A DNA stretch of 40,264 nucleotides from a virus. The stretch is taken from the IMG/VR virus record IMGVR_UViG_3300035180_004110, positions 1 to 40,264 of that record. One strand, 5' to 3'. Under the pieces are notes generated by a model, which was not told the DNA's origin, made no database searches, and worked only from the letters and a program-made list of their open reading frames with translations. Shown piece after piece: positions 10,219-35,889 of the stretch (position 1 is the stretch's first letter; the number at the start of each line of letters is the position of its first letter). Position numbers and translations under genes: made by a program.

Positions 10219-10255
10219 CTGTCCTTTCTACGGGCTTGTTCCGGTTGCACCTTTG
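10219..10255 (+). promoter_or_regulatory. Phage late promoter A (protease-capsid operon)
   Basis: CTGTCCTTT at 10219-10227 is followed after the shared fixed spacing by a TTTG box at 10252-10255 (CACCTTTG, fitting nAnnTTTG). The distance from the end of the first element to the start of TTTG is 25, the same as in four other copies. The predicted start point leaves a leader of about 15 nucleotides before the ATG at 10275. It also shows that the in-frame ATG at 10191 cannot be the used start. Confidence 0.75.
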
Positions 10256-10274
10256 TGTCACTAAAGCGCAAGCA

Positions 10275-11516
10275 ATGCCTAAAACATCAGAAGTAAAATT
10301 ATATGCATTCATCGGTCAGGCTAAGAATGGCTATGACAAAGCTCCCTATATGACAGGAGCGCAGGTAGATGCTATGATCTCTGCCGCAAATGCAGATCCT
10401 GAGACAGATGAAGTATTGTTTAGCGTGAATAGCGGAGGCGGTGACGTGATGCAGGGCAATATCATAATCAGCTCACTGCAGAAATGCACCAAGCCGACTA
10501 CGGCCGTGATAGATGGCTTCGCCGCTTCTATGGGATACTTCGTATGTCTCGGTGCCAATAAGATCCTCGCTTCTAAGAATGCAATGATCATGCCTCACGG
10601 TGTGCAAAGCGCAATCTCGGGATCTGTGCAGGAGATCGAGGCTCATGTAGAGGTTGTCAAAAAATTCAATCAGTCGATGGCTACGCTGCTCACAGCACGT
10701 ACCGGCCTGACTGAAGATGAAGTGATCGCAAAGTATCTCAGCGCAGATACCTGGCTCACCGCTCAGGAAGCTCTCGAACTGAAACTCTTAGACGGTATCA
10801 CCGACTACGAGTCTGATATGGTAGATATGCCGGTAGCCAGCATGAGCTATGGTGAATTCTACGCAGCATACAGCGCCAAACTCTCTGAAGAGCCTGCTGA
10901 GGATTGGTTTGCTAAGATGACTGCAAAGGTCGGTGCCTACTTTGGCATAGCACCCAAGGCAGCAAAGCCAACAGCAATAGTGGTAGAACTCTCCGATAGC
11001 GAAGAGTACTCCCTGCAGAGCATCATAAACTATCTCTCCTATGCCAATGAGTGTGCTGACTATGTATGTGATCAGACCAGCAATCCGGCTCTGAAAGAAC
11101 TGGCAAAGAAGGTCCTGAGCGCTACATCACAGTTCATCATTGACTCTACTGTCATGCTCTACACAGAGGAGAGCGCCGACGCATCCGGAATGGAGGCTCG
11201 TGTCAAGACGATCCGTGCAGACTTCGCAGCTAAGCAGACCGGTACCATCATGGCTGCCATCAAGTCGGATATCGACAGCCAGGTATCAGCAGTCGCTGAG
11301 CCGCTGAAAGCTCAGCTGGCAGAGATTACCCTGAAGTATAATGCTGTGAAAGATCTGCCGGCGGCAACAGCATCGGGTATCAAAACCCAGGTGATACTGA
11401 GTAAGAATCCGGTAATCAAGGCTATCGATGAAAATACAAGCCTGACAGAGGATGGCAAAGTGCTGGCCAAACTCAACACATTCGATTTCGCCACAGCCAG
11501 AGTAGACAATAATTAA
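10275..11516 (+). CDS. ClpP/S14-like head maturation protease with C-terminal extension
   Basis: The 413-residue protein has a ClpP-like fold in its first 180 residues: VNSGGGD at 51-57 (oxyanion-hole glycines), GFAASMG with catalytic Ser85, and IMPHG with His108. D158 in SADTWLTAQEALE matches the position of the third catalytic residue of phage ClpP-like proteases. The remaining 230 residues are alanine- and lysine-rich and helical. They may act as the scaffold during head assembly, as in fused protease-scaffold proteins. It cleaves capsid precursor and itself in relatives. The start at 10275 is set by the promoter at 10219-10255. The capsid gene follows after 25 bases. Confidence 0.85.
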   Translation: MPKTSEVKLYAFIGQAKNGYDKAPYMTGAQVDAMISAANADPETDEVLFSVNSGGGDVMQGNIIISSLQKCTKPTTAVIDGFAASMGYFVCLGANKILASKNAMIMPHGVQSAISGSVQEIEAHVEVVKKFNQSMATLLTARTGLTEDEVIAKYLSADTWLTAQEALELKLLDGITDYESDMVDMPVASMSYGEFYAAYSAKLSEEPAEDWFAKMTAKVGAYFGIAPKAAKPTAIVVELSDSEEYSLQSIINYLSYANECADYVCDQTSNPALKELAKKVLSATSQFIIDSTVMLYTEESADASGMEARVKTIRADFAAKQTGTIMAAIKSDIDSQVSAVAEPLKAQLAEITLKYNAVKDLPAATASGIKTQVILSKNPVIKAIDENTSLTEDGKVLAKLNTFDFATARVDNN

Positions 11517-11541
11517 TTATCAATTTTTTAAATAAAAGACT

Positions 11542-12477
11542 ATGCCATCAGTAGACGTTTCCCAGTTAGCCTCCTTTGCGTACAAATACCAGAAGGAGAT
11601 CATTACTCAGGTTTACCTGAAGCTCGAAAACCAAGGGCTCACCGTCATAGAGGACGTATCTGTCTCTATGAAGTTCCCGAAATTCGTAGTCGGTAATACG
11701 CTGCAAAAGTACAACAGTACTTTCACCGGCTCCGGTACGATCGTATTCAGCGACAGGGAGCTGATCGTACATGACGCTAAAGCTGAGTACAGCATAGACT
11801 CGTATGCTTTCGAAAGCTCCTACCTGCGTCTCAATCGCAAGGATGCGACGCTGATCGAGATCCCGTATGAGAACTACTTCTGGCAGAAGATCGTCGAGAA
11901 GCTGGCCGATGAGATCGTGAAGTCCGTGATCTGGAGCGGTGACACTACCGATACCTCCGGCAACCTCGCACTGAGGATCACAGACGGATTCGCTAAGATG
12001 ATCGCCGCTGCAGTCACTGCCGGTAGCGTGACTCCGATCGTGACCGGGACACCTACCAGCTCAAACGCTGTAGCAAAATTTGAGCTGCTCTATACCTCAG
12101 CTATGGCTACCTATCCTGCACTGGATGGTGCTGAGGACCTCACCATCTACGCGTCTAAAACGCAGGTGAGAAACTACATCATCAACTACAGGAGTCAATT
12201 CCCATATGACCCGAACATCTATTCCAATGGCGAAAAGGATCTCGATCTGAAGATCGCCAATGGAAAGTGTAAGATCATGGGTGTGGACTGGCTGGCAGGT
12301 AGCAATAAGCTCATCCTGACTCCACAGCTGAACCTCAAGTTCGGTACGAACAAGATGAGCGATATGAACGCTATCCGCATCGTAGAGAAGGAATGGACTC
12401 AGAACGTCGGTATCCGTTTCGTGATGGGCCTCCAGATCGCAGACACAGAAGTACTCTTCGTAAACGACGCAACATAG
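11542..12477 (+). CDS. Major capsid protein
   Basis: The 311-residue product follows the head protease, the usual position of the major capsid protein. It shows features of the HK97 fold: a charged N-terminal helix, a long beta-rich region (FTGSGTIVFSDRELIVHDAK), the E-loop-like and spine-helix-like segment (NYFWQKIVEKLADEIVKSVI) and a C-terminal strand series ending RIVEKEWTQNVGIRFVMGLQ. No clear N-terminal scaffold is present, consistent with the extension on the preceding protease. I infer capsid function from position, length and fold pattern rather than from a diagnostic motif. A hairpin with a short T-run follows (12502-12522). Confidence 0.8.
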   Translation: MPSVDVSQLASFAYKYQKEIITQVYLKLENQGLTVIEDVSVSMKFPKFVVGNTLQKYNSTFTGSGTIVFSDRELIVHDAKAEYSIDSYAFESSYLRLNRKDATLIEIPYENYFWQKIVEKLADEIVKSVIWSGDTTDTSGNLALRITDGFAKMIAAAVTAGSVTPIVTGTPTSSNAVAKFELLYTSAMATYPALDGAEDLTIYASKTQVRNYIINYRSQFPYDPNIYSNGEKDLDLKIANGKCKIMGVDWLAGSNKLILTPQLNLKFGTNKMSDMNAIRIVEKEWTQNVGIRFVMGLQIADTEVLFVNDAT

Positions 12478-12491
12478 TCACCTACTCACAT

Positions 12492-12527
12492 AACCTCTTT
12501 GCCCCGCTTCGTGCGGGGTTTTGAGGT
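12492..12527 (+). terminator. Hairpin after the capsid gene, probably partial terminator
   Basis: CCCCGC (12502-12507) pairs with GCGGGG (12513-12518) around TTCGT, followed by TTTT. Flanking ACCTC and GAGGT can extend the stem across the T-run. The T-run is short, so it may only reduce transcription into the following genes, giving extra capsid mRNA. No promoter was seen downstream before 13996. Confidence 0.6.
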
Positions 12528-12559
12528 ACAGAAAGTCAACACTAAAAAAGCAATCAGCC

Positions 12560-12952
12560 ATGGGAGAGATCAAGCCAATCAGCACACCGGAGACTACATT
12601 CAAAGTAGATGGAGCGAACTACAGGTTCCTCATTCCTCAATTCTATCATGGTACTGTCATCACTGCTGAGGAGGCACTGGACAATCCTGCGCTGCTCAAG
12701 GAGCTCGTGGATATCCATCGCAAGGCCGAAGATAAACCCGAAGTCGGTGACGGCCTCCTGCAGCTCGTAGAGGTAGAAGATGAAGATGCAGGTAGTACTA
12801 CCAAACTCGCACCATGGCAGACCGTAGTTAAGTCTATCCAGGATGCAGCTACCGTGGATGAGGTCAATGCACTGACTGTCGGTGATAACCGCAAATCAGT
12901 CACAGATGCAGCTACTGCGCGCATCGCGATCATCAATAAAGCAGGTAAGTAA
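12560..12952 (+). CDS. Small head/tail-region protein with RKxVTDAAT C-terminal module
   Basis: The product has 130 residues from the ATG at 12560; a TTG 13 codons upstream is rejected because it lies in the hairpin region after the capsid gene. Residues about 87-126 (SIQDAATVDEVNALTVGDNR, then KSVTDAATARIAI) form a small helical module. The same module is found in the protein at 13591 (KIAAATTAEEVTAIVGTDTR, then KTVTDAATTKIAS). The N-terminal part has YRFLIPQF. Function unknown; a minor structural protein is likely from position. Confidence 0.6.
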   Translation: MGEIKPISTPETTFKVDGANYRFLIPQFYHGTVITAEEALDNPALLKELVDIHRKAEDKPEVGDGLLQLVEVEDEDAGSTTKLAPWQTVVKSIQDAATVDEVNALTVGDNRKSVTDAATARIAIINKAGK

Positions 12953-12996
12953 TTTTCGTCACTGGCAAACAAGCAGCAAAGCAAATTTTCGTCACT
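12951..12996 (+). repeat. 13-bp direct repeat AATTTTCGTCACT
   Basis: AATTTTCGTCACT occurs at 12951-12963 and again at 12984-12996. The first copy overlaps the stop of the preceding gene and the second lies 20 bases before the next ATG. It may be a trace of a small tandem duplication or a paired binding site. Confidence 0.6.
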
Positions 12997-13016
12997 CGTT
13001 ATAAATTCTTTTTACC

Positions 13017-13529
13017 ATGGGTCCATACAACACACTCACCAAGCCGCTCAATCACTTCCCTGGATTGTCCGACTTCTTTTTCTGCGAACTGTCTCAGTTT
13101 GATGTGATCGCAGATGTCGCTACTCCGGGAGCACAGACGATCAGCGATACACACACATTCCTGACCGGTGAAGGCTTCAAGAAAGCATTTATCATACCTG
13201 AGAAGCATACAGGTAAGGCCAGTACTGCCGGTACGCTCGGTAGCCAGACTCTGAAAAACGAGTTTGAGGTATTCATACCTGGTATCGATGACGCGACGCT
13301 GACCTTCATCAAGAATGCGCTGAACGATGTCTTCATCACCATCCACACGGATGCTGACTGTGACAATCCTCAGAAGTATCAGCTCGGTAATGCATGCCGT
13401 GGTGTACGTATGACCTGTGATCTGACCATCGGTACATTCGAACCTACCGGTGACAAGGGCTTCACATGTAAGTTCACATGGGCTGGTATCCCGTACATCT
13501 ACGATGGTGCGGTGACACTGAAGGTCTAG
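13017..13529 (+). CDS. Structural protein, possible tail tube protein (paralogue 1)
   Basis: The 170-residue product is beta-rich and has a close paralogue at 31027-31563; by eye about two thirds of positions are identical. Shared blocks include PGLS-FFF-ELS, AEKHTGKASTAG-like, GSQTLK, EVFIPGID, FIKNALND, GNACRG-RMTCD and IGTFEPTG-KGFTCKFTWAGI. The strong conservation and length fit a repeating structural subunit such as a tail tube or decoration protein. The sequence itself does not decide which. It lies between two small proteins that share a C-terminal module. Confidence 0.62.
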   Translation: MGPYNTLTKPLNHFPGLSDFFFCELSQFDVIADVATPGAQTISDTHTFLTGEGFKKAFIIPEKHTGKASTAGTLGSQTLKNEFEVFIPGIDDATLTFIKNALNDVFITIHTDADCDNPQKYQLGNACRGVRMTCDLTIGTFEPTGDKGFTCKFTWAGIPYIYDGAVTLKV

Positions 13530-13590
13530 TGACCAGGCTCGGATGAGCCCGAAGAGATAACGATTTTTAAACGTCAAAATATTTTTTGCT

Positions 13591-13935
13591 ATGGCACTCA
13601 ATCCCGAAGTAGGCGCAGCTTACAACCTTGGTTCTAAATTCGATGCAGATGATCAGCGCCCGATGATATTCCCGGGTCTGAACGGTCGCAGGACGCTGGC
13701 TCAGTTCACAGTAGCTGATATTCAGAAGCTCCATGCCAAAGGTCAGGCTAAGGACATCTTCATTCTGAAGGTGCCGGTGATCAATGTACCTGCTCCGCCT
13801 CCTACTATCCAGGAGCAGCTCACTAAGATCGCAGCTGCTACTACTGCAGAAGAGGTGACAGCTATCGTCGGCACAGATACCCGCAAGACGGTCACTGATG
13901 CTGCCACTACCAAGATCGCATCATTCAGCAAATAA
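13591..13935 (+). CDS. Small structural-region protein with RKxVTDAAT C-terminal module
   Basis: The product has 114 residues. The N-terminal half contains PMIFPGLNGRRTLAQFTVAD and a strand DIFILKVPVI. A proline linker (VPAPPPT) follows, then the helical module KIAAATTAEEVTAIVGTDTR, KTVTDAATTKIAS. The same module ends the protein at 12560. Both flank the possible tail tube gene, so the three probably work together in the virion. A strong terminator follows 25 bases after the stop. Confidence 0.6.
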   Translation: MALNPEVGAAYNLGSKFDADDQRPMIFPGLNGRRTLAQFTVADIQKLHAKGQAKDIFILKVPVINVPAPPPTIQEQLTKIAAATTAEEVTAIVGTDTRKTVTDAATTKIASFSK

Positions 13936-13960
13936 CTCTTTTAGGGTTGAAAGGAAAAGC

Positions 13961-13988
13961 AAAAGCCCCTGTGATAGGGGCTTTTGTG
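13961..13988 (+). terminator. Rho-independent terminator of the protease-capsid operon
   Basis: AAAAGCCCCT (13961-13970) pairs perfectly with AGGGGCTTTT (13976-13985) around GTGAT. The run of T at the end of the stem completes a classical terminator. Late promoter B begins 8 bases later. Confidence 0.9.
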
Positions 13989-13995
13989 TTAGGTA

Positions 13996-14032
13996 CTGTC
14001 CTTTCTGCCGGCACTGGTCCGCTATACATTTG
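13996..14032 (+). promoter_or_regulatory. Phage late promoter B (portal-lysis operon)
   Basis: CTGTCCTTT lies at 13996-14004 and TACATTTG at 14025-14032, a perfect TAnnTTTG box, with the common 25-base step. The ATG at 14037 follows the box by four bases. The element directly follows the terminator at 13961-13988, so it starts a new transcription unit. Confidence 0.8.
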
Positions 14033-14036
14033 ACAC

Positions 14037-14318
14037 ATGGTTAAGCATAAAAACATGATGACAACAATTAATGCCGGAGTAGCATTCGATTGTCAGTATG
14101 TCAAGCATAGCAGCGGTGAGATCCGTGAGTTCGCACAGATGCGCAAACTCACTCATGGCCCTAAGCAGTCGCTCTACTCAGCAGCCGGATCCAAAGCGAA
14201 AAGAAGAGTCGGAACCAACTATACTTCACTGACTCCTTTCGTCTGTCAGGATGGATCAGTAGTCGAGCTATACACACGTTTATTTATCAAGTTCAATGGA
14301 GAGGACGTATCACTATGA
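14037..14318 (+). CDS. Small hypothetical protein upstream of the portal gene
   Basis: The product has 93 residues from ATG 14037. ATGs at 14055 and 14058 are alternatives if the mRNA starts later. I keep 14037 because it lies four bases after the TTTG box, as in other genes here. The protein is probably beta-rich and basic (SAAGSKAKRRVG). No family is recognised. It overlaps the portal gene by 4 bases (ATGA), so it is coupled to it, and may be a minor head or connector protein. Confidence 0.58.
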   Translation: MVKHKNMMTTINAGVAFDCQYVKHSSGEIREFAQMRKLTHGPKQSLYSAAGSKAKRRVGTNYTSLTPFVCQDGSVVELYTRLFIKFNGEDVSL

Positions 14319-15634
14319 TAGAGCAGATAGGAGACAATGAGGTTTATATCAGCGTAGATACCCGTAGCTTCTTTGCTAAGGCTACAAAGGTAAAGGAGAT
14401 ACCTAAGCCATCGCCGGTACTGACACGCCGCTATATGTCCGGCCGTCCGTGGATGCCCTGGTCCGATGACAATCTCTATCCGGTCACGCTCCAGAACCTG
14501 CTCAATAAATCACCTGAGGCTGAGGTCTGCCTTGATATCCTCAATAGCTATACATACGGCAACGGCCTCGGAGTATTTGATACATCCGAGGTAAATGGCA
14601 AAAAGGCGAAGATACCCGTCTACGATGCGAAACAGCAAGCATGGCTCCGTCAGATCAATGCCTTTGACTATTGTGTCAAAGCCATTACGGACTACTGGCA
14701 GCTCGGTAACTTCTTCCCTCAGTTCATCCCCTCACTGGATCGTAAGACGATCGCTAATGTCCGCATCTTTGATGCGCCCTTTGTCCGTCTGCAGAGATGG
14801 GGTGAGGAGACCTGTGGTATCAATAATGCATACATCTCCGGAGCCTGGCATACACTGCCGATAGATCAGTACATCACCGTAGTACCTTTCACGGATAAAT
14901 GGAATGCAGCTGAGGCTATCGCTACCAGCTCCACGCCACGGTTTATGTATCAGGGCTACAGGTATACACCCGGAGAGCAGTTCTATCATCGTCAGCCATG
15001 GCATGCGATGGTAGACAATGGTACGATGGATATAGCCGGTAAGCTGCCATCTATCCGGAAGCGGATGATCGACAACTCTATGTTCATCAAATATCACGTA
15101 GAGATCGAGCAGGACTATTGGGCTATCATGTACGGAGCTAAATGGCCATCAGATCCTAAAGAGCAGAGAGTGCTGAAGATGGCATTCTACGAAGAGATCG
15201 AAAAGAAACTCACGGGATCTGCCAATGCATTCAAATCCGTATTCAGTGAGAAAACTACTGATGTCCGCACCGGTAATACCCGAAATCTGATCTCTATCAA
15301 GAAGATCGAAACCGATGCCGGCAAGGATGCCGCGTTCTGGTCTGATATCATGGCCAGTACCGCGCAGATCTTCGTCGGTATGGCGGTCCCGCCGCCGCTG
15401 GTCGGCCCCGTGCTCAGCGATGCGAAGAGTCAGGGAGGAGGAAGCGATATCGCAGAGAGTCAGAATGCGCTCATCTCCCGCCTCAAGATACACCGGGCTA
15501 ATATCCTGGAGCCGCTTGACTTCGCCATGCGCTACAGCGGCCTCCTGTCACCTACACAGACACTTGAGTTCGAAGATACATTGCTCACCACGCTGGATGT
15601 CAACCCTACCGGCCAACAAAAAGTAGTAACCTGA
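14315..15634 (+). CDS. Portal protein
   Basis: The 439-residue product has the composition and layout of a phage portal: an N-terminal arm, a mixed stem and clip region, then the C-terminal pattern VPPPLVGPVLSDAKSQGGGS followed by IAESQNALISRLKIHRANI and LEPLDFAM. The proline/glycine loop followed by a long helix is typical of portal wing and crown helices. Portals form the dodecameric ring at the head vertex, through which the terminase packages DNA. It shares one base with the next gene (TGATG). The order portal after capsid, with terminase elsewhere, is unusual. Confidence 0.8.
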   Translation: MIEQIGDNEVYISVDTRSFFAKATKVKEIPKPSPVLTRRYMSGRPWMPWSDDNLYPVTLQNLLNKSPEAEVCLDILNSYTYGNGLGVFDTSEVNGKKAKIPVYDAKQQAWLRQINAFDYCVKAITDYWQLGNFFPQFIPSLDRKTIANVRIFDAPFVRLQRWGEETCGINNAYISGAWHTLPIDQYITVVPFTDKWNAAEAIATSSTPRFMYQGYRYTPGEQFYHRQPWHAMVDNGTMDIAGKLPSIRKRMIDNSMFIKYHVEIEQDYWAIMYGAKWPSDPKEQRVLKMAFYEEIEKKLTGSANAFKSVFSEKTTDVRTGNTRNLISIKKIETDAGKDAAFWSDIMASTAQIFVGMAVPPPLVGPVLSDAKSQGGGSDIAESQNALISRLKIHRANILEPLDFAMRYSGLLSPTQTLEFEDTLLTTLDVNPTGQQKVVT

Positions 15635-16662
15635 TGCCACTAATCACCACCATAGAGGAGCTGAAGAGCTTCACCAATGCCGTATCGCTCGCTACATTCC
15701 CCGATGATCTGGCTCCGAGCCTGGCTACGATCGAGGATTCTGTCATAGCGGATATCATCGGCACTGCTCAGCTCGCAGATCTGCAGGCTGCATATGCTGC
15801 ATCTATAGCTGATCCGGGTCCCGTACCGCTGTCAGATCGGAATATGAAGCTTTGGACAGCGATCAATAAAGTATTGGTACCACTGGCTATCATTGATTTC
15901 ATCAATAATACGATGGCGAGTACCAGTGCTGCAGGTACCGGTGAGTCTTCTGCCAGTGGTATGGCCTCCGCTCGTATGTGGGTCACGGTCCAGAAGAAGG
16001 AGAATTTGCAGCGTACTGCGCAGCGGGCTATAGACAATCTATATGTCTTCCTGGAGACTAACAAAGCTGACTATGAGTTGTGGACTGCCAGTGATCAGTA
16101 CACAGAGTTTAAGGAGCTGCTGGTACAGACTACCAAGCAGTTCAATGATATCGTAGAGATCGGCGGCAGTCGTAAGCTCTTCCTTCGCCTCCGTGCGAGT
16201 ATCTCAGAGGTCGAGAAGATGTTCATCATCCCGCTCATCGGCCAGCCATTCTATGACGCGCTGATCACGGCACTCAAGGGTACACCTGATGCGAATCAGA
16301 TAGCAGCCGTAAAAGCCCTCAGAGAGGCTATCATACGTTTGTCTATGTCACGTACTCCCTTGCCACTGATGTTTGATGAGCACGGAGTCTACTACATCAG
16401 CAGCGATGCTACCAATACCGGAGAGGCGATATCCCGCAATCCATCCCGCAATGCAGTCAATGAACAAACGATGGATGCATACAAGCTGCAGCTGATGCTC
16501 ACCGGTCAGGGCTTCCTTGCCCAGGCTAAGAAGTATCTCAATGCCACAGCATCAGATACCATATTTCCGGAGTACTTCAATAATCCGGCTGTCTATTCAG
16601 ACCCTACGACTCAGGACCTGTCCTCTGTCAATGATCGCTTAAACAACACATTTGTACTATGA
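15634..16662 (+). CDS. Head-tail connector-like protein with internal duplication (DUF6712-like)
   Basis: The 342-residue product appears to contain two related helical domains, about 1-100 and about 165-270. Each has an acidic or polar helix followed by a segment of the type IEDSVIADIIGTAQLADLQ, or VEKMFIIPLIGQPFYDALI, then a helix with residues close to LAIIDF or REAIIRLSMSR. This resembles Bacteroidota phage proteins of the DUF6712 type, located next to the portal and thought to act as head-tail connectors. That family name is from memory. The position directly after the portal supports a connector role. Confidence 0.62.
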   Translation: MPLITTIEELKSFTNAVSLATFPDDLAPSLATIEDSVIADIIGTAQLADLQAAYAASIADPGPVPLSDRNMKLWTAINKVLVPLAIIDFINNTMASTSAAGTGESSASGMASARMWVTVQKKENLQRTAQRAIDNLYVFLETNKADYELWTASDQYTEFKELLVQTTKQFNDIVEIGGSRKLFLRLRASISEVEKMFIIPLIGQPFYDALITALKGTPDANQIAAVKALREAIIRLSMSRTPLPLMFDEHGVYYISSDATNTGEAISRNPSRNAVNEQTMDAYKLQLMLTGQGFLAQAKKYLNATASDTIFPEYFNNPAVYSDPTTQDLSSVNDRLNNTFVL

Positions 16663-20306: not shown

Positions 20307-20343
20307 CTGTCCTTTAGTCTGAGTCTATCCATGCCGACATTCG
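20307..20343 (+). promoter_or_regulatory. Phage late promoter C (tape-measure operon)
   Basis: CCTGTCCTTTAGT begins at 20306 (the core CTGTCCTTT at 20307-20315). The box ACATTCG ends at 20343 with TTCG at 20340-20343, 25 from the end of the first element. The ATG of the tape-measure gene follows after four bases at 20348. The third T of TTTG is C here. Confidence 0.72.
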
Positions 20344-20347: not shown

Positions 20348-23300
20348 ATGAGCGCAGGACAAAATGTAAATGGCGGTGTCAATATCTACATCAATGAGGC
20401 CGATCTTCAGGCTCAGATGCAGCGTCTGACCGTGACGGCTGACAAATTGCAGAATGCTATAGCCAGCGGTAGCAATGCCGCTCAGCTCACAGCTGATGCA
20501 CTGAAGAAGATGGCAGACAAGGAGTCTGATCTGAAAGCTTTGCAGAATGCAGCCTCAGCACTCAAGACAGAGATAGATAATGTCACCAAGACAGGAGGCA
20601 ATGCCACTGATCAGATCAAGCAGCTCGGCACTACTACAGCCGCGATCAATAGCGTAGAGAAGCAAATCAGCCAGCTCGGCAATACCATCACATCCACGGC
20701 CAGAAATCAGAGTGACCTAAATGACAACATGTCCAAGCTCGCTGATGTCAAGGATAAGATCTCAACTATAGAGAAGCAAATGTCCGGCCAAATCTCACCA
20801 TCACTGAGACAAGCAGGTGATGCCGTTCGTAAGCTCTACAATGAGCTATCCAACCTGCCCAACGGATCCGCTGCATTCCTCGCTAAGAAACAGCAGTTCG
20901 ATGAAGCCAATGCCACATTCGTAAAGATGCAACAGCAGGTCAAAGGAGTCAAGGAGAGTCTGCATGAAGCCGGAGAGGAAGGAGGTATATTCGGTCACAT
21001 CTTCAAAGAGGCATTCGCCGCGATCACCGTCGAGAAGGGAATAGAGAAAGCACTAGAAGTAGTCACTGATTTCTTCAAAGAAGCTATAAAGGAATCTCTG
21101 GAGCTCGAGGTGACACAGACACGTCTCAAAAATATCCTCAACAACTTTGGTAAGGCTGAGGATCTGGAAAAATTCAATGAGAAGGCTGAGGAGCTAAGCA
21201 AGAAATTTGGATACCTCTATGCTCCGGAGATCACTAAGGTCCAGACGCAGCTCGTTGTATTGGGTAAGCTTAATAACGAGCAGATCAATCAGCTCATACC
21301 TACCATCGCAGACTTCGCAGCATATACAGGTAAGAGCATGGAGGAGTCCGGCCAGATCGTAGTCAAAGCCCTGGAGGGATCCCGCCGCGAGCTGCACAAT
21401 CTCGGCATCGAGGTCAAACAGGGTAGCGGATTCGCGGAGAATTATGGCATCGTGACTCAGCAGCTGGCTCAGAAGGTAGCGGGATCCGCTGAGACTTTTA
21501 GCAAGACCGGAGCCGGAGCGATCGCTGCGTACAATACACAGCTGAAATATCTGCAGGAGCAATTAGGCAATGCCTTGCTTCCTTCCATCACAAGCTCAGC
21601 ACGTAGCGCCACACAGTTTATACAAGTGCTCGGTACACTGCCCAAATTCGTCAATGATAACCGTCAGGCCATCATCGCCCTGGCAGGTGCTTATGTCATC
21701 ATGAACTCTGCCGTCATCGCTGAGACGGCTACCACTCAGTTTAATACAGCTGCCAAGATCTACAATACCGTAGTGGAGCGCGCATCTACCGTCGCGAAGA
21801 CAGCGGGCTTCATAGCCGTAGGTTTATATCAGGTCGCATACGCAGTGCTCACCGGAGAGATCGGACTGGCTACAGCTGCTACGGCTGTATTCGGTACCGT
21901 GACGGCAGCAGCTACCGGAGGACTCACACTGATCATAGCTGCCATAGCTGCCATCGGCACAGGATTGGCGGTATATGCCGCCAGAGCTACCGAAGCCGAA
22001 AAAGCAGAGGAGAGCCTGGCTAAGGTCCGTCTGAATGCTGAGCAGTCTATACAGAAGGAAAAAGCACAGTTGGATCTGCTCGTGCAGACTGCAAAGAATG
22101 AAGCCCTGTCAAAGGAGAAAAGGATAGCAGCCATCCAGAAGATCAATGAACTCAATCCGGAGATGCTCAATGGCATCACCCTGGAGAATATCGCTACCAA
22201 GGAAGGTACCGCGATCCTGAACGAGTATATCGAAGCATTGGGACGTAAAGCACAGAAGGAAGCATTAGAGCAGCAGCTGGTAGAGATCTACAAGCTCCGC
22301 AATGAAGCACTAACCAAATCACAGAGTGACCTCGTGAGCGGGATGGACATCATGAAGCAAACCCTGCTCGGTATCATCACTGTAGGTATCCATGAGTCAG
22401 ACTATGATAAGATAGCCGCGGCCAATAAGAAGGAGTTGGTCAATGGCTACAATGCACAGATAGCTGCTGTGCTCAATCTCGCCAAAACACTGGAAGGTAA
22501 AGAGGGCAAAGATTCAAAGAAGGATGATCTCAAGAAGCTGGAAGAGTTCTATGCGAAGGCTGCACAGTATCAGAAGGACTTTAGCGCCCTGACGCTTGAC
22601 TCCACTACTGCCGAGGTCAATCATGTGAAGTCTACCTACGAAGAGCTGAACAACGAGCTGGCAAAATATCAGTCTGAGGGAGTCATCACCCTGCAGAAAT
22701 ATATCGAGATCAAACAGCAGCTATCTAAAAACGATGCTGTCAAGGAGTTTGAGGATGCACAGAAGCGCGCCGAGGAGAGAGCTAAAAAGGAAGCCGAACT
22801 GAGAAAGAAGAAAGAAGAGCAGGAGAGGAAGGATCTGGAAACATTCATGCAGCAACTCGCTACTCTCAGAAATGAAAATGGCGTACTCGAGTTGGATGAA
22901 AATGCCAAAGCAATAGCCGCATCCCGGGAGAAGTTTGAGAAGCTCTACATCTTCGCTAAAGAGCATTGGGGAGAGAATGGCAAGATCACTCAGGAACTGG
23001 AGCGATACTATGCTGATGAGGTCAACCGGCTCGGAGACAAAAATACAGAGAAGAAATACAAAGACGGCTATGACAATCGTGTCAAGCTCGTCACTGCTAT
23101 GTATGATGAGCTGCGCTCCAAAGCGGAAGGGGACAAGGCCGCTGTCATCGCTATAGATATCGCTGAGTTCGATGCCAAGGCGAAAATAGCTCACGACTAT
23201 GTAACCGTAGTCAAGGGTGCAAAGGCTGATGAGGCTAAAGCGAATGATGATGCAGCCAAAGCGCGTGTCGCCCTGGAGAAACAACTACAGGCCGATCTCA

Positions 23301-29222: not shown

Positions 29223-29615
29223 ATGAAAAACATTCTCCTACTGATAGTGATCGCTGCATCACTGGCATCGTGCAAGAAAGATAATACAGGCCCCACATCA
29301 GGCCCATCTACGTACAATGCATGGTTTGCAGAAGCTGATGGTGCCCATGGGGAGATTGCCGCATGGGGATCTAGCAGCCAGCATCCTTCTGTGGTAATTA
29401 ATTATCTACCTTGTAGTCATGAGTTTGGCAATATTTATAACATTCAGATCGGCGATACCATTATGGCTTTCTCAACTGGCGCTACATCGTGCGCTTCCAC
29501 ACCCCAGAGTGCTACTATAGGAGCTGTCAGGAGCGATGGGACACGAGTGACATTCAAAACTGACACATCTATAGTTCCCGCATCATTGCGTATCACGTAT
29601 ATCGTCAAAGAGTAA
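29223..29615 (+). CDS. Small lipoprotein, candidate moron
   Basis: The 130-residue product has a signal peptide with a lipobox (LASC, Cys17; KNILLLIVIAASLASC). It would be lipidated after export and, in Bacteroidota, may reach the cell surface. The mature sequence has four more cysteines and no recognised domain. A TATATTTG box at 29211-29218 lies four bases before the ATG, matching nAnnTTTG, but no CTGTCCTTT or -33 TTTG is seen at the expected distance. A surface lipoprotein inside the late region suggests lysogenic conversion or receptor masking. Confidence 0.68.
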   Translation: MKNILLLIVIAASLASCKKDNTGPTSGPSTYNAWFAEADGAHGEIAAWGSSSQHPSVVINYLPCSHEFGNIYNIQIGDTIMAFSTGATSCASTPQSATIGAVRSDGTRVTFKTDTSIVPASLRITYIVKE

Positions 29616-29635
29616 CCAACACCTAAATCTATATC

Positions 29636-30172: not shown

Positions 30173-30277
30173 CTTTACTCTTTTTAACAAATTTATTTTT
30201 TATCAGCTACAGTACCTGAAACTCAGGTATATATGCCTGTCCATAAACGAGTGTTCCTATTGGAATCTTTATTGTCA

Positions 30278-30309
30278 TTTGACAGCTGCGCTTTATCAGC
30301 TTACATTTG
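30278..30309 (+). promoter_or_regulatory. Canonical Bacteroidota vegetative promoter
   Basis: TTTG at 30278-30281, 20 bases, then TACATTTG at 30302-30309 match the Bacteroidota consensus TTTG-N19-21-TAnnTTTG exactly. It lacks the CTGTCCTTT element of the phage late promoters, so it should be read by the host vegetative sigma factor, also in the lysogen. It would start transcription near 30314 and produce the structured RNA downstream. A direct repeat GTGATGTA (30315-30322 and 30325-30332) lies just after it and could be an operator. Confidence 0.75.
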
Positions 30310-30313
30310 GCAA

Positions 30314-30465
30314 TGTGATGTAAAGTGATGTAGGTTTGCATTGCACACCGATATTAGAAATAGTATCACAATTACATATCGAAGAATAACCCGCGCCGGA
30401 CAGTTGGCGGCTGTCAACTCTTACCTTAACTGGTATCGGTGTGCAGGGCGCGGGCGTTCTTCAAA
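30314..30465 (+). ncRNA. Structured RNA or leader with pseudoknot-capable segments
   Basis: Between the promoter and the next gene lie several complementary segments. A is TGCACACCGATA (30342-30353). B is CCCGCGCC (30390-30397), preceded by GAAGAA (30381-30386). C is the small hairpin GACAG/CTGTC (30399-30415). A' is TATCGGTGTGCA (30434-30445), a perfect complement of A. B' is GGCGCGGG (30447-30454), followed by TTCTTC (30457-30462), complementary to B and GAAGAA. The order A-B-C-A'-B' allows an H-type pseudoknot. A second copy of A (TGCACACCGA, 30482-30491) overlaps the start codon of the next gene, so A' could instead mask that start. This could be a translational switch or a free RNA. The 3' end is not defined. 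Confidence 0.6.
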
Positions 30466-30480
30466 ATTAAACTTTGTCAA

Positions 30481-30927
30481 ATGCACACCGACAAAAAAGG
30501 AGTAAAGCCCAGCTCAGGCGCAAAAGGAGCACAGACAGATCTCAATGAGGAGATCATTTTTAGCAAGAAGCAAATGGGGGACATAGAGATGCTGATCGAG
30601 ACGACCATAGATCATCCTGATCTGATGAAGTTTCCCCAGGGATCTGTATTCGTCTGTGAGCGGCGGAAGCGGAGACCATCGATGAGCCTGCACATGATGC
30701 GAATGTTCGTAGGTGAGCATCCTCGGGAGTCGGCGCTTGATTTCCTAATGGACCTTTTTAACGCTTACCTGCTGGAGGGACGTGATCACAAAACCAACTT
30801 CTGTACTATAGCCTATCAGGATTGGGAGCACTGGAGAGAGCTGTATATGCTCATAGACACGATATATGAAGATTCAGCCAATGGCATACCTGATACAGAG
30901 CTTGTATCCATAGCCTGCCTACAGTAA
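30481..30927 (+). CDS. Hypothetical protein controlled by the structured leader
   Basis: The 148-residue product starts at ATG 30481. An in-frame GTG at 30439 would read through the RNA stem and is less likely. A TTTG (30473-30476) lies four bases before the ATG, as at other starts here, so a local leaderless transcript is possible as well. The protein has a basic N-terminus, a short basic patch (ERRKRRPS) and acidic helices. No family is recognised. It is followed by a strong terminator and is a single-gene unit. Confidence 0.6.
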   Translation: MHTDKKGVKPSSGAKGAQTDLNEEIIFSKKQMGDIEMLIETTIDHPDLMKFPQGSVFVCERRKRRPSMSLHMMRMFVGEHPRESALDFLMDLFNAYLLEGRDHKTNFCTIAYQDWEHWRELYMLIDTIYEDSANGIPDTELVSIACLQ

Positions 30928-30946
30928 TTTCAGCTAGTCCCCTCAG

Positions 30947-30974
30947 AGCCGTACCGATTTGGTGCGGCTTTTTT
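30947..30974 (+). terminator. Rho-independent terminator
   Basis: AGCCGTACC (30947-30955) pairs with GGTGCGGCT (30961-30969), with one G-U pair, and is followed by TTTTTT. It ends the single-gene unit at 30481 and is followed within 15 bases by late promoter D. Confidence 0.88.
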
Positions 30975-30985
30975 CATGCCTATAC

Positions 30986-31022
30986 CTGTCCTTTAGTCCG
31001 TCAGCTGCTCTGCTGATATTTG
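30986..31022 (+). promoter_or_regulatory. Phage late promoter D (second structural unit)
   Basis: CCTGTCCTTTAGT begins at 30985 (core 30986-30994), and GATATTTG ends at 31022 (TTTG 31019-31022), with the shared step of 25. The ATG at 31027 follows four bases after the box. It drives the duplicated structural gene and the leucine-rich tip gene. Confidence 0.8.
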
Positions 31023-31026
31023 TGAC

Positions 31027-31563
31027 ATGGGATATAACTCACTCACGAAAGCGGCCAACTACTTCCCGGGGCTTTCTACCTTCTTCTTCTCAGAGCTGTC
31101 ATCATTTGACACGCTGGCCGATCCGCTAGCCGATAGCCAGCTGATCATCGGTGACCACACCTTCTTATCGGGAGAGGGATGGAAGAAAGCCTATATCATC
31201 GCTGAGAAGCATACAGGCAAAGCCAGTACTGCCGGATCTATCGGCAGCCAGACACTCAAGTATGAAATGGAAGTATTCATACCGGGCATCGACGAGCAGG
31301 TACTGGACTTTATCAAGAATGCACTGAATGATCAGTTTATCACTATGCACCGGGATGCTGACTGCAGCAATCCTATGCTGTATCAGATCGGCAACGCCTG
31401 CAGGGGAGCGCGTATGACATGTGACATGGTGATAGGAACCTTCGAGCCTACGGGTGAGAAAGGATTCACCTGTAAGTTTACCTGGGCAGGGATCATGTAT
31501 CTCTATACCGGTGTGATGACCATGCAGCCAGAGATTTCTATTTCTATCACATATAATCCTTAA
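31027..31563 (+). CDS. Structural protein, paralogue 2 of the 13017 product
   Basis: The 178-residue product is a close paralogue of the protein at 13017: both begin MG-(P)YN-LTK and share PGLS-FFF-ELS, EKHTGKASTAG, GSQTLK, EVFIPGID, FIKNALND, GNACRGARMTCD and FEPTG-KGFTCKFTWAGI. It has about ten additional C-terminal residues (EISISITYNP). It has its own late promoter and is followed after 2 bases by a tip protein gene, so this copy may act as the anchor or adaptor for that protein. Such a duplication could also make a mixed tail tube. Confidence 0.65.
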   Translation: MGYNSLTKAANYFPGLSTFFFSELSSFDTLADPLADSQLIIGDHTFLSGEGWKKAYIIAEKHTGKASTAGSIGSQTLKYEMEVFIPGIDEQVLDFIKNALNDQFITMHRDADCSNPMLYQIGNACRGARMTCDMVIGTFEPTGEKGFTCKFTWAGIMYLYTGVMTMQPEISISITYNP

Positions 31564-31565
31564 TC

Positions 31566-32924
31566 ATGTCAAACCAAAACACATTCGTCATCGGCAAGGG
31601 TACCGCTAAACTATTGGTATCGCTACGCCCACTGACAGCAGAGGAAGATGCTGCTGTCAATACAGATAATTCATATGTCACCGATCAGCTGGAGGTAGAA
31701 ACCGTAGATGGTTTTAAGCTCCAGCTGATGGCGCTCGATCCCGGTACCGGTGATATCACCGTCTACCCGCATAGCATAGATCTGCTACCGCTATCTGCCC
31801 TTATTTATATCACCGTAAAACTGTCAACAGACATGAGAATACTGACCGTCACTGAGACGATAAATCAGGGAATAGTATCCGGCAACTATAAACTGCAGGC
31901 CAAAGGCGCCAACCTCGGCACCGATTTTATCGATATTGCAACAGTGACCGGCCAGCCTACGAGCGGCAGCTTCGATCTGCCTACACTGCCGGTAGGACCA
32001 AGTGAGCAATTCATCAATGGCAATAGCTATACATTCCGCGTACTCGATACTACGACCGGTGCGGTATCTCAGGAGGTCATCTTTATGATACCTGCAGACG
32101 CAGTATTCTCACTTACTCTGGCACCGGGTAATTTCAGGGTAAATAATGAAAATCTACCTGTAGCAAATATTGCCGGAACTGTTTTCACTAATGGCAACGG
32201 GCTATACGATGTGCGGATGATCTGCGCAGCTGTAGGCTATGATAATACTACTACGGTAGCGGGTCCTGCTAATGGTATATGGGGCACTAATGGCAGGATA
32301 GTAGTACCATCTGATGTGTATGGCCAGACTATAGAGATCATCGTATCTCAGAATGGCCTGCCAGGTACATTTACGGCATCTATCTTTATCAATATCCCTG
32401 TCTGCACGCTTATCACATTTGTCACCACAGACCCGGCGCAATCATGCGACCTGCAGATAGATGGAACCGGCAATATCTCATGGGGAGATGGCGCAAACGA
32501 CACCTATACGAATCCTGTAGGACCTACCAGCCATGTATTTGCCAATCCGGGCACCTACAACATACTCCTGCATGATATCGACGGCATGACTACGTTTACA
32601 GTCAATGGTACTACCACTGCATATGTGACAGGAGTAGATGCGGTGCCTGATACTATTACTAACCTAGATCTGTCGCACAACCAAATAGCGGATCAAACTC
32701 CGGTAGACAATAATCCAGCGCTTATAGCCGTGATAGATTTATCGTATAATGTCATGGATTCTGCATTCATCGACCAGGTGATCAACAGCCTTAACTTTGC
32801 CGGACTCTCTGCACCACTAGTCATGAATATCAACAATCAGACACCGCCAGCACCTCCTACACCGGCTAGCATGGCAGGATTGCTAGGACTACGCGGCAGA
32901 GGAGTGACTGTCAATACAGATTAG
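31566..32924 (+). CDS. Tip/adhesin protein with PKD-like and leucine-rich C-terminus
   Basis: The 452-residue product has a beta-rich N-terminal region of about 280 residues. A PKD-like domain follows (about 290-340; ISWGDGANDTYTNP then FANPGTYNILLHDIDG), then leucine-rich units at about 363-405 (TITNLDLSHNQIADQ and IAVIDLSYNVMDS). The end is a cap with MNINNQTPPAPPTPASMAGL and RGVTVNTD. The same leucine-rich cap ends the tail-tip protein at 24443. PKD and leucine-rich repeats commonly mediate surface adhesion, so this is a likely receptor-binding component. The preceding gene 2 bases upstream probably anchors it. Confidence 0.66.
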   Translation: MSNQNTFVIGKGTAKLLVSLRPLTAEEDAAVNTDNSYVTDQLEVETVDGFKLQLMALDPGTGDITVYPHSIDLLPLSALIYITVKLSTDMRILTVTETINQGIVSGNYKLQAKGANLGTDFIDIATVTGQPTSGSFDLPTLPVGPSEQFINGNSYTFRVLDTTTGAVSQEVIFMIPADAVFSLTLAPGNFRVNNENLPVANIAGTVFTNGNGLYDVRMICAAVGYDNTTTVAGPANGIWGTNGRIVVPSDVYGQTIEIIVSQNGLPGTFTASIFINIPVCTLITFVTTDPAQSCDLQIDGTGNISWGDGANDTYTNPVGPTSHVFANPGTYNILLHDIDGMTTFTVNGTTTAYVTGVDAVPDTITNLDLSHNQIADQTPVDNNPALIAVIDLSYNVMDSAFIDQVINSLNFAGLSAPLVMNINNQTPPAPPTPASMAGLLGLRGRGVTVNTD

Positions 32925-32956
32925 TTTCGGTGTGATGTGCTATGATCCACACCATC

Positions 32957-32984
32957 AGCCCTGCGCCGTAACGCAGGGCTTTTT
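32957..32984 (+). terminator. Rho-independent terminator at the end of the rightward late genes
   Basis: AGCCCTGCG (32957-32965) pairs perfectly with CGCAGGGCT (32972-32980), followed by TTTTT. It ends the rightward unit just before the convergent terminase operon. Confidence 0.88.
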
Positions 32985-33025
32985 ATGGGCATTACAGTAA
33001 CCCGTTCCGGTAGGTTAGTCAGGCA

Positions 33026-33043
33026 CTTAACTTAAAAGTTAAG
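33026..33043. other. Palindrome after the terminase operon, possible terminator or operator
   Basis: CTTAACTT (33026-33033), AA, AAGTTAAG (33036-33043) is a perfect inverted repeat directly after the terminase stop codon (33045-33047 on the minus strand). It is A+T-rich with a two-base spacer and no clear T-run on the minus strand. It may help end the leftward transcript or bind a protein. Confidence 0.4.
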
Positions 33044-33044
33044 T

Positions 33045-34664
33045 TTATGCAATAGCGGAATCAGACCAGGTAGATGACGGACTGAGTATATCAAAGTATT
33101 TCGCAAATACAATGATATCAACAGCATCAGAGAAGTGAGTAGCCTGACGCTGATCGAAGTTTTTATTTTTCTCACTGGACTTATCCTTTTCAAATCCATC
33201 CTTCCGGCCTTGCTTCAGTGGAGCTTTGAGCATAGAGATCCAGGTGAATTTGCAGTTGTTTCTATTCATTCTGAACTTAGGATATGTAGGATCTTCTTCA
33301 CTCAGTATATTCTGAAACAGCAGATGCTTATCATGATAGTGCGGATTGGTCGTGACATTATTTACGATCGTGACCTTCCATCCAGACTCACGCAGCAGGC
33401 GTGAAAACTCCTGAGCATATGTCTCATTACTGTCTGCCCTGGCATTGTTGCCTGATGGGTCATAGTACATCGTCACAGCCTTATCTACACGCTTCTCATA
33501 GTATGAGGTAAACTTGACAATCAATGCATGCATCGTCTCCGTCGGAGAGGTATAGAATTCATTGATCACCTTGAATACATTATTGGGCATAGTCTGTGCT
33601 ACCACCATCGTATTAATACTACCACCCCAATCTACTGAGATATCGAGCGGACGGCCCTGAGCGTGATCAGAGTCATCTTCGCAGCTCCGCTTTGCTATCT
33701 GCGCGAAGTCATACTGCAGATTATCGATCCGGCTATAGTTATCTGCATAGTAGCCATGTCTATCCTCATCCAGCAGCGGATAAAATCCGCCCTCGATCTT
33801 CGCTACATCTTCATTCATGATCGCCATCCTGAATTCGAGCGGAGACATGTTCCTTTTCATTTGCTCTATATATCGCACACCGATATTGGGAAGATTTTCA
33901 AGTGTAGAAGCCTCGAAGACAGATACACACTTCATCCTTAGAGCAGTGATAAGTTTTTGTGCTGTAGCGATAGATGCAGGATTACTTTTAGCTGCTATAG
34001 CATCATTGATGGCCAGCTGCATCTTGATGATCTTGTTTGTGCGGTCATTATTGGCTAATAGTCGCTTTTTTAATATCCAGTCTGATCCTTTAGTCGTGAA
34101 GTACTTGTCTGAAAACCCTACGATAGAGTGATGTTCCGGCAGATGCTCGAAGTAGCGATCATTGCCTCGATTAGTTTTGATAGTTTCATTAAATAGATCT
34201 TCCGGCAGCAGTTTCATCTCATCAGCAGTGATACCATCAGTCTCAGTACCGTTATTTGTCACCTTACGATCGAGGCTCGTCATTCTGATCGCTGCACCGG
34301 TGTACCAATGTATCATAAACTCACGTGCAGTCTTTTCAGGTGCTATGTATGGGTCCTTCCATCCATTTTTTTGAGGAATATCACTTTTGCCGATCACAAA
34401 ATGCTTATCTCGCTTGTATCCCATTTCTTCCCAGGTGCGTACGAGAGGAGCGACGAGATCCGTCATGAGTTTTCTATAATTCGGCGCCAACATCATACGA
34501 CTACAGCGAGGCATAGAATGCATATTGTCGCGCTCATATTTAGCAAGCACTTTTGTCTTACCAATACCACGGCCGGCGAAGAAATACATCTCCTTAGTAT
34601 TAGCAAGAAGAAACTTGGCCTGTGTGGGACCTAGATAGATCTGGTTAACCTTTGTTTCGCTCAT
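33045..34664 (-). CDS. Terminase large subunit
   Basis: The 539-residue product has the large-terminase ATPase and nuclease domains. The Walker A motif FFAGRGIGKTK spans about 28-38 (GRGIGKT 31-37), and the Walker B ITADE spans 145-149. The C-terminal RNase H-like nuclease shows DISVDW at about 343-348, YYDPSGNNARAD in the middle and HFSDAVD at 510-516. It packages DNA into the head through the portal. It is encoded on the strand opposite to the head genes and is the last gene of a leftward operon. It overlaps the preceding gene by 20 bases. Confidence 0.9.
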   Translation of the reverse strand: MSETKVNQIYLGPTQAKFLLANTKEMYFFAGRGIGKTKVLAKYERDNMHSMPRCSRMMLAPNYRKLMTDLVAPLVRTWEEMGYKRDKHFVIGKSDIPQKNGWKDPYIAPEKTAREFMIHWYTGAAIRMTSLDRKVTNNGTETDGITADEMKLLPEDLFNETIKTNRGNDRYFEHLPEHHSIVGFSDKYFTTKGSDWILKKRLLANNDRTNKIIKMQLAINDAIAAKSNPASIATAQKLITALRMKCVSVFEASTLENLPNIGVRYIEQMKRNMSPLEFRMAIMNEDVAKIEGGFYPLLDEDRHGYYADNYSRIDNLQYDFAQIAKRSCEDDSDHAQGRPLDISVDWGGSINTMVVAQTMPNNVFKVINEFYTSPTETMHALIVKFTSYYEKRVDKAVTMYYDPSGNNARADSNETYAQEFSRLLRESGWKVTIVNNVTTNPHYHDKHLLFQNILSEEDPTYPKFRMNRNNCKFTWISMLKAPLKQGRKDGFEKDKSSEKNKNFDQRQATHFSDAVDIIVFAKYFDILSPSSTWSDSAIA

Positions 34665-35205
34665 TCTTCAGCTCGTTTTGTGCCCTTTCTATCCACTCAT
34701 CCAGATCTACAGTTTTGTCATCGTCGATCTTGAGCTGATTGCTCTGTATGAAATAATTGTTGGTGATCTTAAGCGCCATTTCTTCCGGAGACTCTGTGAA
34801 TACATCCGGACGGTCCAGCCGATAGAGCTTGATCCATTGCTCTATGAGTTTTGGCACCGGCCGCATATCGTCATTATCATAGCAGTTCTTTATAGCCTTG
34901 CCGATCTGATTCTTGATCAGTATACGCTCAAAGCTACGATCTACTTTGTCCAGCTGGCCGTATATGGCTTTTGTGTCACGTACATATGTATAGAGCGTCC
35001 CATCCGTCAGCTCAGGATATACAGACTTGATGCGATTGCGGATCTTGTCTATGGTATCAAAGGGATATTCTATCAGCTGTGCAGCGATGAGCACATATGC
35101 ATCAGCACGGCGCTGCAGATGCTCAGGGAGATCTATACTACCCGGAGGACTGCTGATGTATGCCGATATGGTATCAAGATCGGTCGATTGACTAAGTTGT
35201 CTCAT
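34645..35205 (-). CDS. Probable terminase small subunit
   Basis: The 186-residue product is mostly helical and lies directly before, and overlaps, the large terminase gene. A helix-turn-helix-like region is at about 45-85 (IRNRIKSVYPELTDGTLYTY). The C-terminal helices contain acidic residues and a basic end (NELKNERNKG). The assignment comes from position and size; the sequence has no diagnostic motif. It would recognise the packaging site on phage DNA. It overlaps the upstream gene by 14 bases. Confidence 0.62.
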   Translation of the reverse strand: MRQLSQSTDLDTISAYISSPPGSIDLPEHLQRRADAYVLIAAQLIEYPFDTIDKIRNRIKSVYPELTDGTLYTYVRDTKAIYGQLDKVDRSFERILIKNQIGKAIKNCYDNDDMRPVPKLIEQWIKLYRLDRPDVFTESPEEMALKITNNYFIQSNQLKIDDDKTVDLDEWIERAQNELKNERNKG

Positions 35206-35845
35206 TGTTTTCCAGTTTTATTATTTCAGCCTCTTTTTCTGCCATCTGAGCGAGTTTCTTTGTTTGCTTGCCTCTTAGCCGATGGAGCAGAGTTTCGTCC
35301 TTAGTGACCAGTATCTGTGCCTCCAGCGATGCCAGTTCCCTCTTATTGATGCTCACATACGTACGGAGATTGGTCAGACGCTTATGATCATTCGCTGACA
35401 GATCACCGGCCTTTGTGACTTTCTTAGGTTTGTGGGTTTTGGCGGGCATGATAGTCTGATGCTGTATAAAGTAGTCACGCCCCTCCCAGTGCTCAGCGCA
35501 TTCCTTCTCCAGTGCTACTACCTTGTGAGCCAGCACACGGCGCTCAGCATCTGTACTGACAGCAGCCATACGTGCATGATACATACTCATCTCAGCGAAG
35601 AGGGGATACCATGCTGCATCTATCTGCTTGAGCTGTGGTGATACCTGCGGTGAGACAGGGACAGGAGTGGAGGTGACAGCTGGCTGCTTTGCCTTTAGGT
35701 CACGCAGTACGGCCTTGAGCTTATCGGGGTTAGGGTGATTGGTCAGGAGTATCACGACAGACTTATACCCCCCATACATCTCATATAGATGGACCCCTTT
35801 ATGATAGTCCCGAGGATCGTTCAGCCAGTCGATGATATCTTTCAT
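35192..35845 (-). CDS. Hypothetical protein, first gene of the terminase operon
   Basis: The 217-residue product begins MKDIIDWLNDPRDYHKGVHL. It has a proline linker at about 60-72 and a helical, charged C-terminus (about 150-217; coiled coil with many E, K and A). The N-terminal segment WLNDPRDYHKGVHLYEMYGG recalls proteins I associate with Bacteroidota phages, where their role is unknown. It starts 7 bases after the box of late promoter E, and overlaps the small-terminase candidate by 14 bases. A packaging accessory role is possible. Confidence 0.6.
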   Translation of the reverse strand: MKDIIDWLNDPRDYHKGVHLYEMYGGYKSVVILLTNHPNPDKLKAVLRDLKAKQPAVTSTPVPVSPQVSPQLKQIDAAWYPLFAEMSMYHARMAAVSTDAERRVLAHKVVALEKECAEHWEGRDYFIQHQTIMPAKTHKPKKVTKAGDLSANDHKRLTNLRTYVSINKRELASLEAQILVTKDETLLHRLRGKQTKKLAQMAEKEAEIIKLENNETT

Positions 35846-35852
35846 ACAATTG

Positions 35853-35889
35853 TAAATCTCGGATAGTCTTATCGCATACTAAAGGACAG
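35853..35889 (-). promoter_or_regulatory. Phage late promoter E (leftward terminase operon)
   Basis: On the minus strand CCTGTCCTTTAGT begins at 35890 (core CTGTCCTTT 35889-35881), and GAGATTTA follows with TTTA at 35856-35853, again a step of 25. The ATG at 35845 follows after 7 bases. The same element on the opposite strand shows it is a directional promoter and not a random repeat. Confidence 0.75.

Follow-up and report, generated by a model that had tools for sequence, protein, structure and literature searches.

Several late promoters of phage Mu share a site for their activator, the C protein, near position -35, and the activator gene lies just before the late genes. In the middle promoters of phage T4, a phage element and a phage activator (MotA) replace the -35 region and the host -10 box is kept (PMC2988021). 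Primary promoters of the Bacteroidota, the targets of sigma-ABfr, present TTTG at -33 and TAnnTTTG at -7, separated by a spacer of variable length, and leaderless mRNA is rare in these bacteria (PMC7366714). The analysis of a viral sequence of 40,264 nucleotides (IMG/VR record IMGVR_UViG_3300035180_004110), referred to in its entirety as the window, outlined an arrangement in which the element CTGTCCTTT stands at a rigid distance from a host-type -7 box, ahead of structural and terminase units. The best overall explanation, which we hold with considerable confidence on comparative grounds, is that these sites drive late transcription in a large group of tailed phages infecting Bacteroidota, as promoters operating through the host sigma factor and a phage factor. 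No published description of this promoter system was found in the literature searched, which comprised open-licence papers only, and such absence is not proof.

The original prediction placed CTGTCCTTT at five positions in the window (10219, 13996, 20307, 30986 and, on the minus strand, 35889). All five instances were recovered, with no further copies, against 0.21 expected, and none of 100 shuffles reached five. The proposed fixed spacing was likewise observed at the five sites, with the box (TTTG, TTTG, TTCG, TTTG and TTTA from P1 to P5) beginning at the 25th base past the element, that is, with 24 bases in between. The placement ahead of late units also held throughout, the units in question being those of the protease/capsid, the pre-portal/portal, the tape measure, the second tail-tube protein and the terminase. 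The features that define these five sites are the following:

10219 to 10227, plus strand: P1 element CTGTCCTTT, ahead of the head-maturation protease/capsid unit; top-scoring site under a matrix derived from motif-independent relatives.
10249 to 10255, plus strand: P1 -7 box ACCTTTG; predicted +1 at 10260 and start codon at 10275, with a 15-base leader.
10275 to 11516, plus strand: head-maturation (ClpP-type) protease gene, predicted to be driven by P1 (PHROG head maturation protease, 9.8e-34; Pfam CLP_protease, 8e-22).
13996 to 14004, plus strand: P2 element, ahead of the pre-portal/portal unit.
14026 to 14032, plus strand: P2 -7 box ACATTTG (TACATTTG from 14025); the ATG at 14037 is the predicted +1.
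20307 to 20315, plus strand: P3 element, ahead of the tape-measure unit.
20337 to 20343, plus strand: P3 -7 box ACATTCG; the ATG at 20348, of a tape-measure-like protein of 1358 amino acids, is the predicted +1.
30986 to 30994, plus strand: P4 element, ahead of the second tail-tube-family gene.
31016 to 31022, plus strand: P4 -7 box ATATTTG; the ATG at 31027 is the predicted +1.
35881 to 35889, minus strand: P5 element, ahead of the terminase unit.
35853 to 35859, minus strand: P5 -7 box AGATTTA; predicted +1 at 35848 and ATG at 35845, with a 3-base leader.
33045 to 35845, minus strand: P5 unit, with a gene for 217 amino acids, a gene for 186 amino acids in the small-terminase position, and the terminase large subunit (33045 to 34664).

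The families of the P5 unit are common to all 31 near-complete relatives, and the relatives are annotated as terminase. For P1, the start at 10275 was preferred because homologues appear to align from MPKTSEVKLY. Measured from the start of the element, the ATG lies at 41 bases in P2, P3 and P4, at 44 in P5 and, with the homology-supported start, at 56 in P1. The first C of CTGTCCTTT is lineage-specific and free to vary in relatives, the conserved part being the 8-base core TGTCCTTT, and the consensus can be written as TGTCCTTT-N21-A-N2-TT(T/C)G-N4-[ATG]. Within it, the A three bases ahead of the box (A-n-n-TTTG) is conserved like the box itself (85/94 core-selected sites). A further shared G had been proposed about six bases past the element; the sixth base is indeed G at the five window sites, but this conservation is weak outside the window, at 20/43 sites not selected for G and 21/73 in the terminase-selected set described below. 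The original prediction overlooked the start codon at the predicted +1, a sixth site and the 8-base core.

A scan of viral contigs with the exact pattern CTGTCCTTT-N5-G-N18-TTTG-N4-ATG returned 38 stretches in 36 phage contigs, against some 6 that we estimate for a pattern with 17 fixed bases. For nearly all 36 records the contigs were retrieved, most of them in full, and together with the window they contain 99 copies of the bare core, compared to 14 for shuffled cores. At 68 of these copies A-n-n-TTYG is found in register, a configuration that 300 shuffled cores yielded 0.05 times on average and once at most. With the window and every contig-selecting site excluded, 30 of 57 cores still carry A-n-n-TTYG in register. 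The sites in this first set precede protease/capsid, pre-portal/portal, terminase, tail-tube and tape-measure units. A wider scan, with the pattern TGTCCTTT-N21-A-N2-TTTG-N4-ATG, identified at least 69 new loci; among those listed, 65/69 encode structural proteins of this phage group. Of 75 ATGs among the matches listed, no fewer than 53 begin a gene of a recognized late family (pre-portal, first gene of the terminase unit, tail and others).

The same conclusion is reached with loci selected independently of the motif. Eighty viral loci were picked by terminase homology and seven already seen were removed, leaving 73 loci (1.07 Mb). These contain 130 copies of TGTCCTTT, of which 73, spread over 37 loci, are in register, while shuffled cores averaged 0.1 in-register instances with a maximum of 3 in about 400 shuffles. 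All 73 fall at offset 33, and five other offsets present one site each. A count of hexamers upstream of all instances of A-n-n-TTYG-N4-ATG in these loci, blind to the core, had TCCTTT, GTCCTT and TGTCCT as its top three, in the same register. The predicted +1 coincides with an ATG at 17 of the 73 motif-independent sites, against an expectation of 1 in 64 (P = 1.5e-15). The comparative data hence establish, at the level of sequence, the motif and its rigid register, its placement ahead of late genes, its restriction to one phage group and the preferred fixed distance to an ATG.

The motif is almost certainly a promoter. The box coincides with the core of the TAnnTTTG sequence found at -7 in Bacteroidota promoters, the leading T of which is weakly conserved here (29/73), and both the A-n-n-TTTG sequence and the implied distance to +1 are those of sigma-ABfr promoters, which makes use of this sigma factor very likely. 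Signals unrelated to initiation, acting for instance in packaging, RNA processing or translation, would also be compatible with many copies per genome at conserved places by late genes, often directly before start codons. We regard this explanation as very improbable, since the element keeps a fixed distance to a host-type -7 box at 73/73 in-register sites (other offsets show nothing similar), occurs in up to six copies per genome ahead of different operons and, in P5, lies on the opposite strand and is oriented towards the operon it heads. A hairpin as a general feature of the predicted 5' end was likewise looked for and not found: the visual impression that sites lacking an ATG at +1 might carry 5'-terminal hairpins, as a second type of leader, was dropped upon folding 28 sites (mean z -0.05). 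A promoter read by a phage or extracytoplasmic function (ECF) sigma factor was also discarded, given the host-type -7 box and the lack of a sigma factor match for the candidate activator discussed below.

The original prediction further proposed that these phage-specific late promoters keep the host -7 box and replace the -33 TTTG, and the comparative data support this proposal, in that a single phage group carries the motif, and does so ahead of late genes. The promoters differ from those of sigma-ABfr in lacking the -33 TTTG, in presenting TGTCCTTT, rigidly spaced, at -40 to -33 and in belonging to one phage group only. The window itself provides a contrasting case, for the host-type promoter reported at 30278 is indeed present and lacks the element:

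30278 to 30309, plus strand: canonical host-type promoter TTTG-N20-TACATTTG, before the gene at 30439 to 30927.

Given that the TTT of the core sits at the place of the host -33 TTTG and that the -7 box is of host type, TGTCCTTT might instead constitute a strong extended -33 contact for sigma-ABfr, with no phage factor involved and timing set by other means. Several observations render this unlikely. Host promoters combine TTTG with a variable spacer (PMC7366714) and here the spacing is rigid; a G after TTT is rare (7/94 and 3/73 sites); and the element is not enriched outside the phage group. Host regions were assessed via a collection of 84,980 bacterial and archaeal genomes, in which 30 stretches match the 17-base pattern, approximately the number expected by chance. 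Fourteen of these 30 adjoin genes of this phage group, all of them in Bacteroidota (e.g. Pedobacter, Flavobacterium, Zunongwangia and Hymenobacter). The equal frequency in unrelated host regions that would speak against a phage promoter was hence not observed: there is no excess outside prophages, and the spaced motif, being found at about chance frequency in bacterial genomes, is therefore not a general host feature. The hosts of the phage group are Bacteroidota. One locus labelled with a cyanobacterial host (L209, Microcystis phage Mea-Yong924-1) encodes this group's terminase and candidate activator and carries late promoters of the same kind, and its host label may be wrong.

Cultured relatives provide additional evidence on this point. 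The Helgolandviridae/Duneviridae phages Leef_1, Ingeline and laban6-1 have a terminase and a candidate activator homologous to those of the window, with only 24-28% identity to the window terminase, and no description of promoters for these phages was found in the open-licence literature searched. The promoter register is the same in Leef_1, Ingeline and, with TGTCACAA, laban6-1. In Polaribacter phage Leef_1, four in-register copies of ATGTCCTTT or TTGTCCTTT are accompanied by relaxed boxes (ATCTTGC, for example), and one of these sites lies exactly 41 bases ahead of gp05; Cellulophaga phage Ingeline and Bacteroides phage BT-TP2 present two in-register sites each. No in-register TGTCCTTT was found in Flavobacterium phage laban6-1 (L211), whose version of the candidate activator is a diverged one. 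Instead, ATGTCACAA occurs four times at the same register (10123, 26975, 30996, 32738 minus strand) ahead of several genes, the protease and the tape measure among them, and the element occupying the TGTCCTTT register is TGTCACAA. Two further loci (L177 and L180) carry GTCCTAAA or GTCCTATT in register with an ATG at +1, and no clear in-register repeat was seen in phage 6H. The element thus varies (TGTCACAA, GTCCTAAA) and its register remains constant, which is the outcome to be anticipated if a co-evolving phage-encoded factor acts together with an unchanging host sigma factor, and which argues against the final TTT being the host -33 contact.

The data may be accommodated by a mechanism in which RNA polymerase carrying the host primary sigma factor, sigma-ABfr, would read A-n-n-TTTG at -7, and a sequence-specific factor made by the phage would bind TGTCCTTT at -40 to -33, in the place of the host -33 TTTG. 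Such a factor would fix the polymerase in one rigid register, and the promoters would be weak without it. The original prediction had left open the choice between an activator and an altered sigma contact; the comparison favours a phage-encoded factor, for which the best candidate is the following:

9532 to 10113, plus strand: candidate late-gene activator; homologues suggest a start at the ATG at 9580.

Late activators in phages are often encoded just ahead of the late genes. No further gene stands between the candidate and the first late unit, and the candidate would be expressed from early transcription. Profile searches detected its family in 29 of 31 near-complete genomes (seven of the 31 from GenBank); apart from structural proteins and the integrase, no other family is conserved among them. 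In 26 of 32 cases it lies on the same strand as the protease and at most 3 kb upstream of it, and the BT-TP2 homologue was annotated as a transcriptional regulator by its depositors. Mean column identity in the family is 24%, with one invariant Arg in the final helix (FDxLKKxxYRxR), and two AlphaFold2 models are confident (predicted local distance difference test, pLDDT, 86.9 for the window protein, and 84.6). Foldseek comparison of the two models with the PDB returned no relative with E below 0.1, and among viruses the sole strong match was a protein of Leef_1. Searches against Pfam (with 24 members), PHROG and NCBIfam returned no convincing match, and assignment of the candidate to Mor/C, sigma or another known fold was therefore rejected. 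One member of the family (G010, L057 18552-19310) has a C-terminal extension that by eye resembles the DNA-binding domain IV of DnaA.

In long terminase loci the protein and the motif are found together in 18 cases, the protein alone in four, the motif alone in two and neither in six (Fisher P = 0.007). We consider the product of 9532-10113 the likelier identity for the late activator, but several points weigh against this assignment and the scheme built on it. The association between protein and motif is confounded by shared ancestry; the protein lacks a recognizable DNA-binding domain or structural relative in the databases searched; it occurs without an in-register motif in four long terminase loci and in phage 6H; and it was not found in the partial sequences searched of two motif-bearing genomes (G024 and G031). 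About three quarters of the motif-independent sites, moreover, lack an ATG exactly at +1. The absence of detectable DNA-binding homology and the two motif-bearing genomes lend some weight to a different factor acting on genuine promoters, whether a host regulator co-opted by the phage, a sigma-ABfr that the phage modifies or a different phage protein, which we judge a lesser but appreciable possibility. The only alternative regulator-like family found, annotated as LuxR-like in cultured relatives, is encoded in 14 of 31 genomes; this early gene was rejected as the activator, being absent from the window and from 16 other genomes, and no further non-structural, non-integrase family exceeds 23/31. 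A host regulator would predict the motif in host genomes, at variance with the lack of excess outside prophages, and the change of the element between lineages at fixed geometry again points to a factor encoded by the phage.

Like the T4 middle promoters, the phage promoter places a phage-specific element in the -35/-33 region, keeps the host box and precedes a co-expressed gene class. The MotA box, (a/t)3TGCTTtA, lies 12 bp from the -10, is centred at -30 and tolerates change; TGTCCTTT, in contrast, hardly varies, has its end about 20 bases from TAnnTTTG and belongs to late genes. In Pfam and PHROG the candidate gave no match to the MotA family, and AsiA was looked for only via the candidate. 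The proposed activator in place of the -35 contact resembles the Mu late arrangement, but the candidate differs from C/Mor in having no Pfam match (Mor family included) and no fold match in the PDB. By the tests made, the system is not a member of the T4 middle or Mu late class.

With the -7 box centred as in Bacteroides thetaiotaomicron, +1 should fall within about one base of position 41, which is the ATG in P2, P3 and P4, and leaderless mRNAs are therefore predicted. At many sites the predicted +1 coincides with the start codon, and late mRNA would accordingly be leaderless or nearly so; for P2, P3, P4 and a sixth site, P6, this is probable. The latter emerged from a matrix built only from motif-independent sites, which ranked P1 to P5 and, in addition, position 16618:

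16618 to 16626, plus strand: P6 candidate element CTGTCCTCT, with one mismatch, within the end of the upstream gene and ahead of the lysis genes.
16648 to 16654, plus strand: P6 -7 box ACATTTG, perfect and in register; the ATG at 16659, of a small membrane protein, is the predicted +1, and a CHAP endolysin-like gene follows (17188).

By matrix score alone, 16618 is within the range of shuffled sequence. Across 37 contigs, one-mismatch sites with A-n-n-TTYG-N4-ATG and an open reading frame number 8, against 0.2 expected, and 16618 is probably a separate lysis promoter for the small membrane protein and the CHAP-domain endolysin-like gene. A sixth exact copy of TGTCCTTT is located at 36205 and was dropped as a promoter, as it lacks a -7 box in register. 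This core (36204-36212) directly follows a terminator-like stem-loop, between the terminase promoter and the early genes, and is possibly a decayed site or a chance match.

Other features of the late region are of note. The unit preceding P2 may end at the following structure:

13960 to 13986, no strand assigned: stem-loop with a T-rich tail on the minus strand; on the plus strand it is followed by TGTGTT (plus-strand reading by eye).

Two tail-tube-family paralogues are encoded at 13017-13529 and 31027-31563, the second with its own late promoter and followed by a repeat-like protein of 452 amino acids; many relatives also have the family in duplicate, and the set searched contains 66 members. 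The segment at 30278-30927 lies within the late region and comprises a gene that has host-type promoters, is devoid of a late element and resembles an inserted cargo gene (moron). The P4 (31027-32924) and P5 (33045-35845) units are convergent and meet at a strong terminator-like stem-loop (32957-32980).

Late-gene switching in temperate phages of the Bacteroidota, a dominant gut phylum, appears to be undescribed in the literature searched. The near-invariant motif provides a one-line annotation tool that locates, in raw sequence, the phage group together with its operons and genuine start codons, and the analysis names a testable activator family without known relatives. Bacteroidota genetics would also gain from an inducible promoter with a single activator. 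Bacteroidota do not rely on Shine-Dalgarno pairing, and the late transcripts, if the prediction is true, would represent a natural set of leaderless mRNAs in this phylum. On balance, we slightly favour the view that a whole, deeply diverged group of tailed Bacteroidota phages relies for late-gene control on one hitherto undescribed system, which combines an orphan-fold activator with a promoter of fixed geometry, whose element drifts between lineages (TGTCCTTT, TGTCACAA, GTCCTAAA) and which would yield leaderless mRNAs for capsid, portal, tail, lysis or terminase genes.

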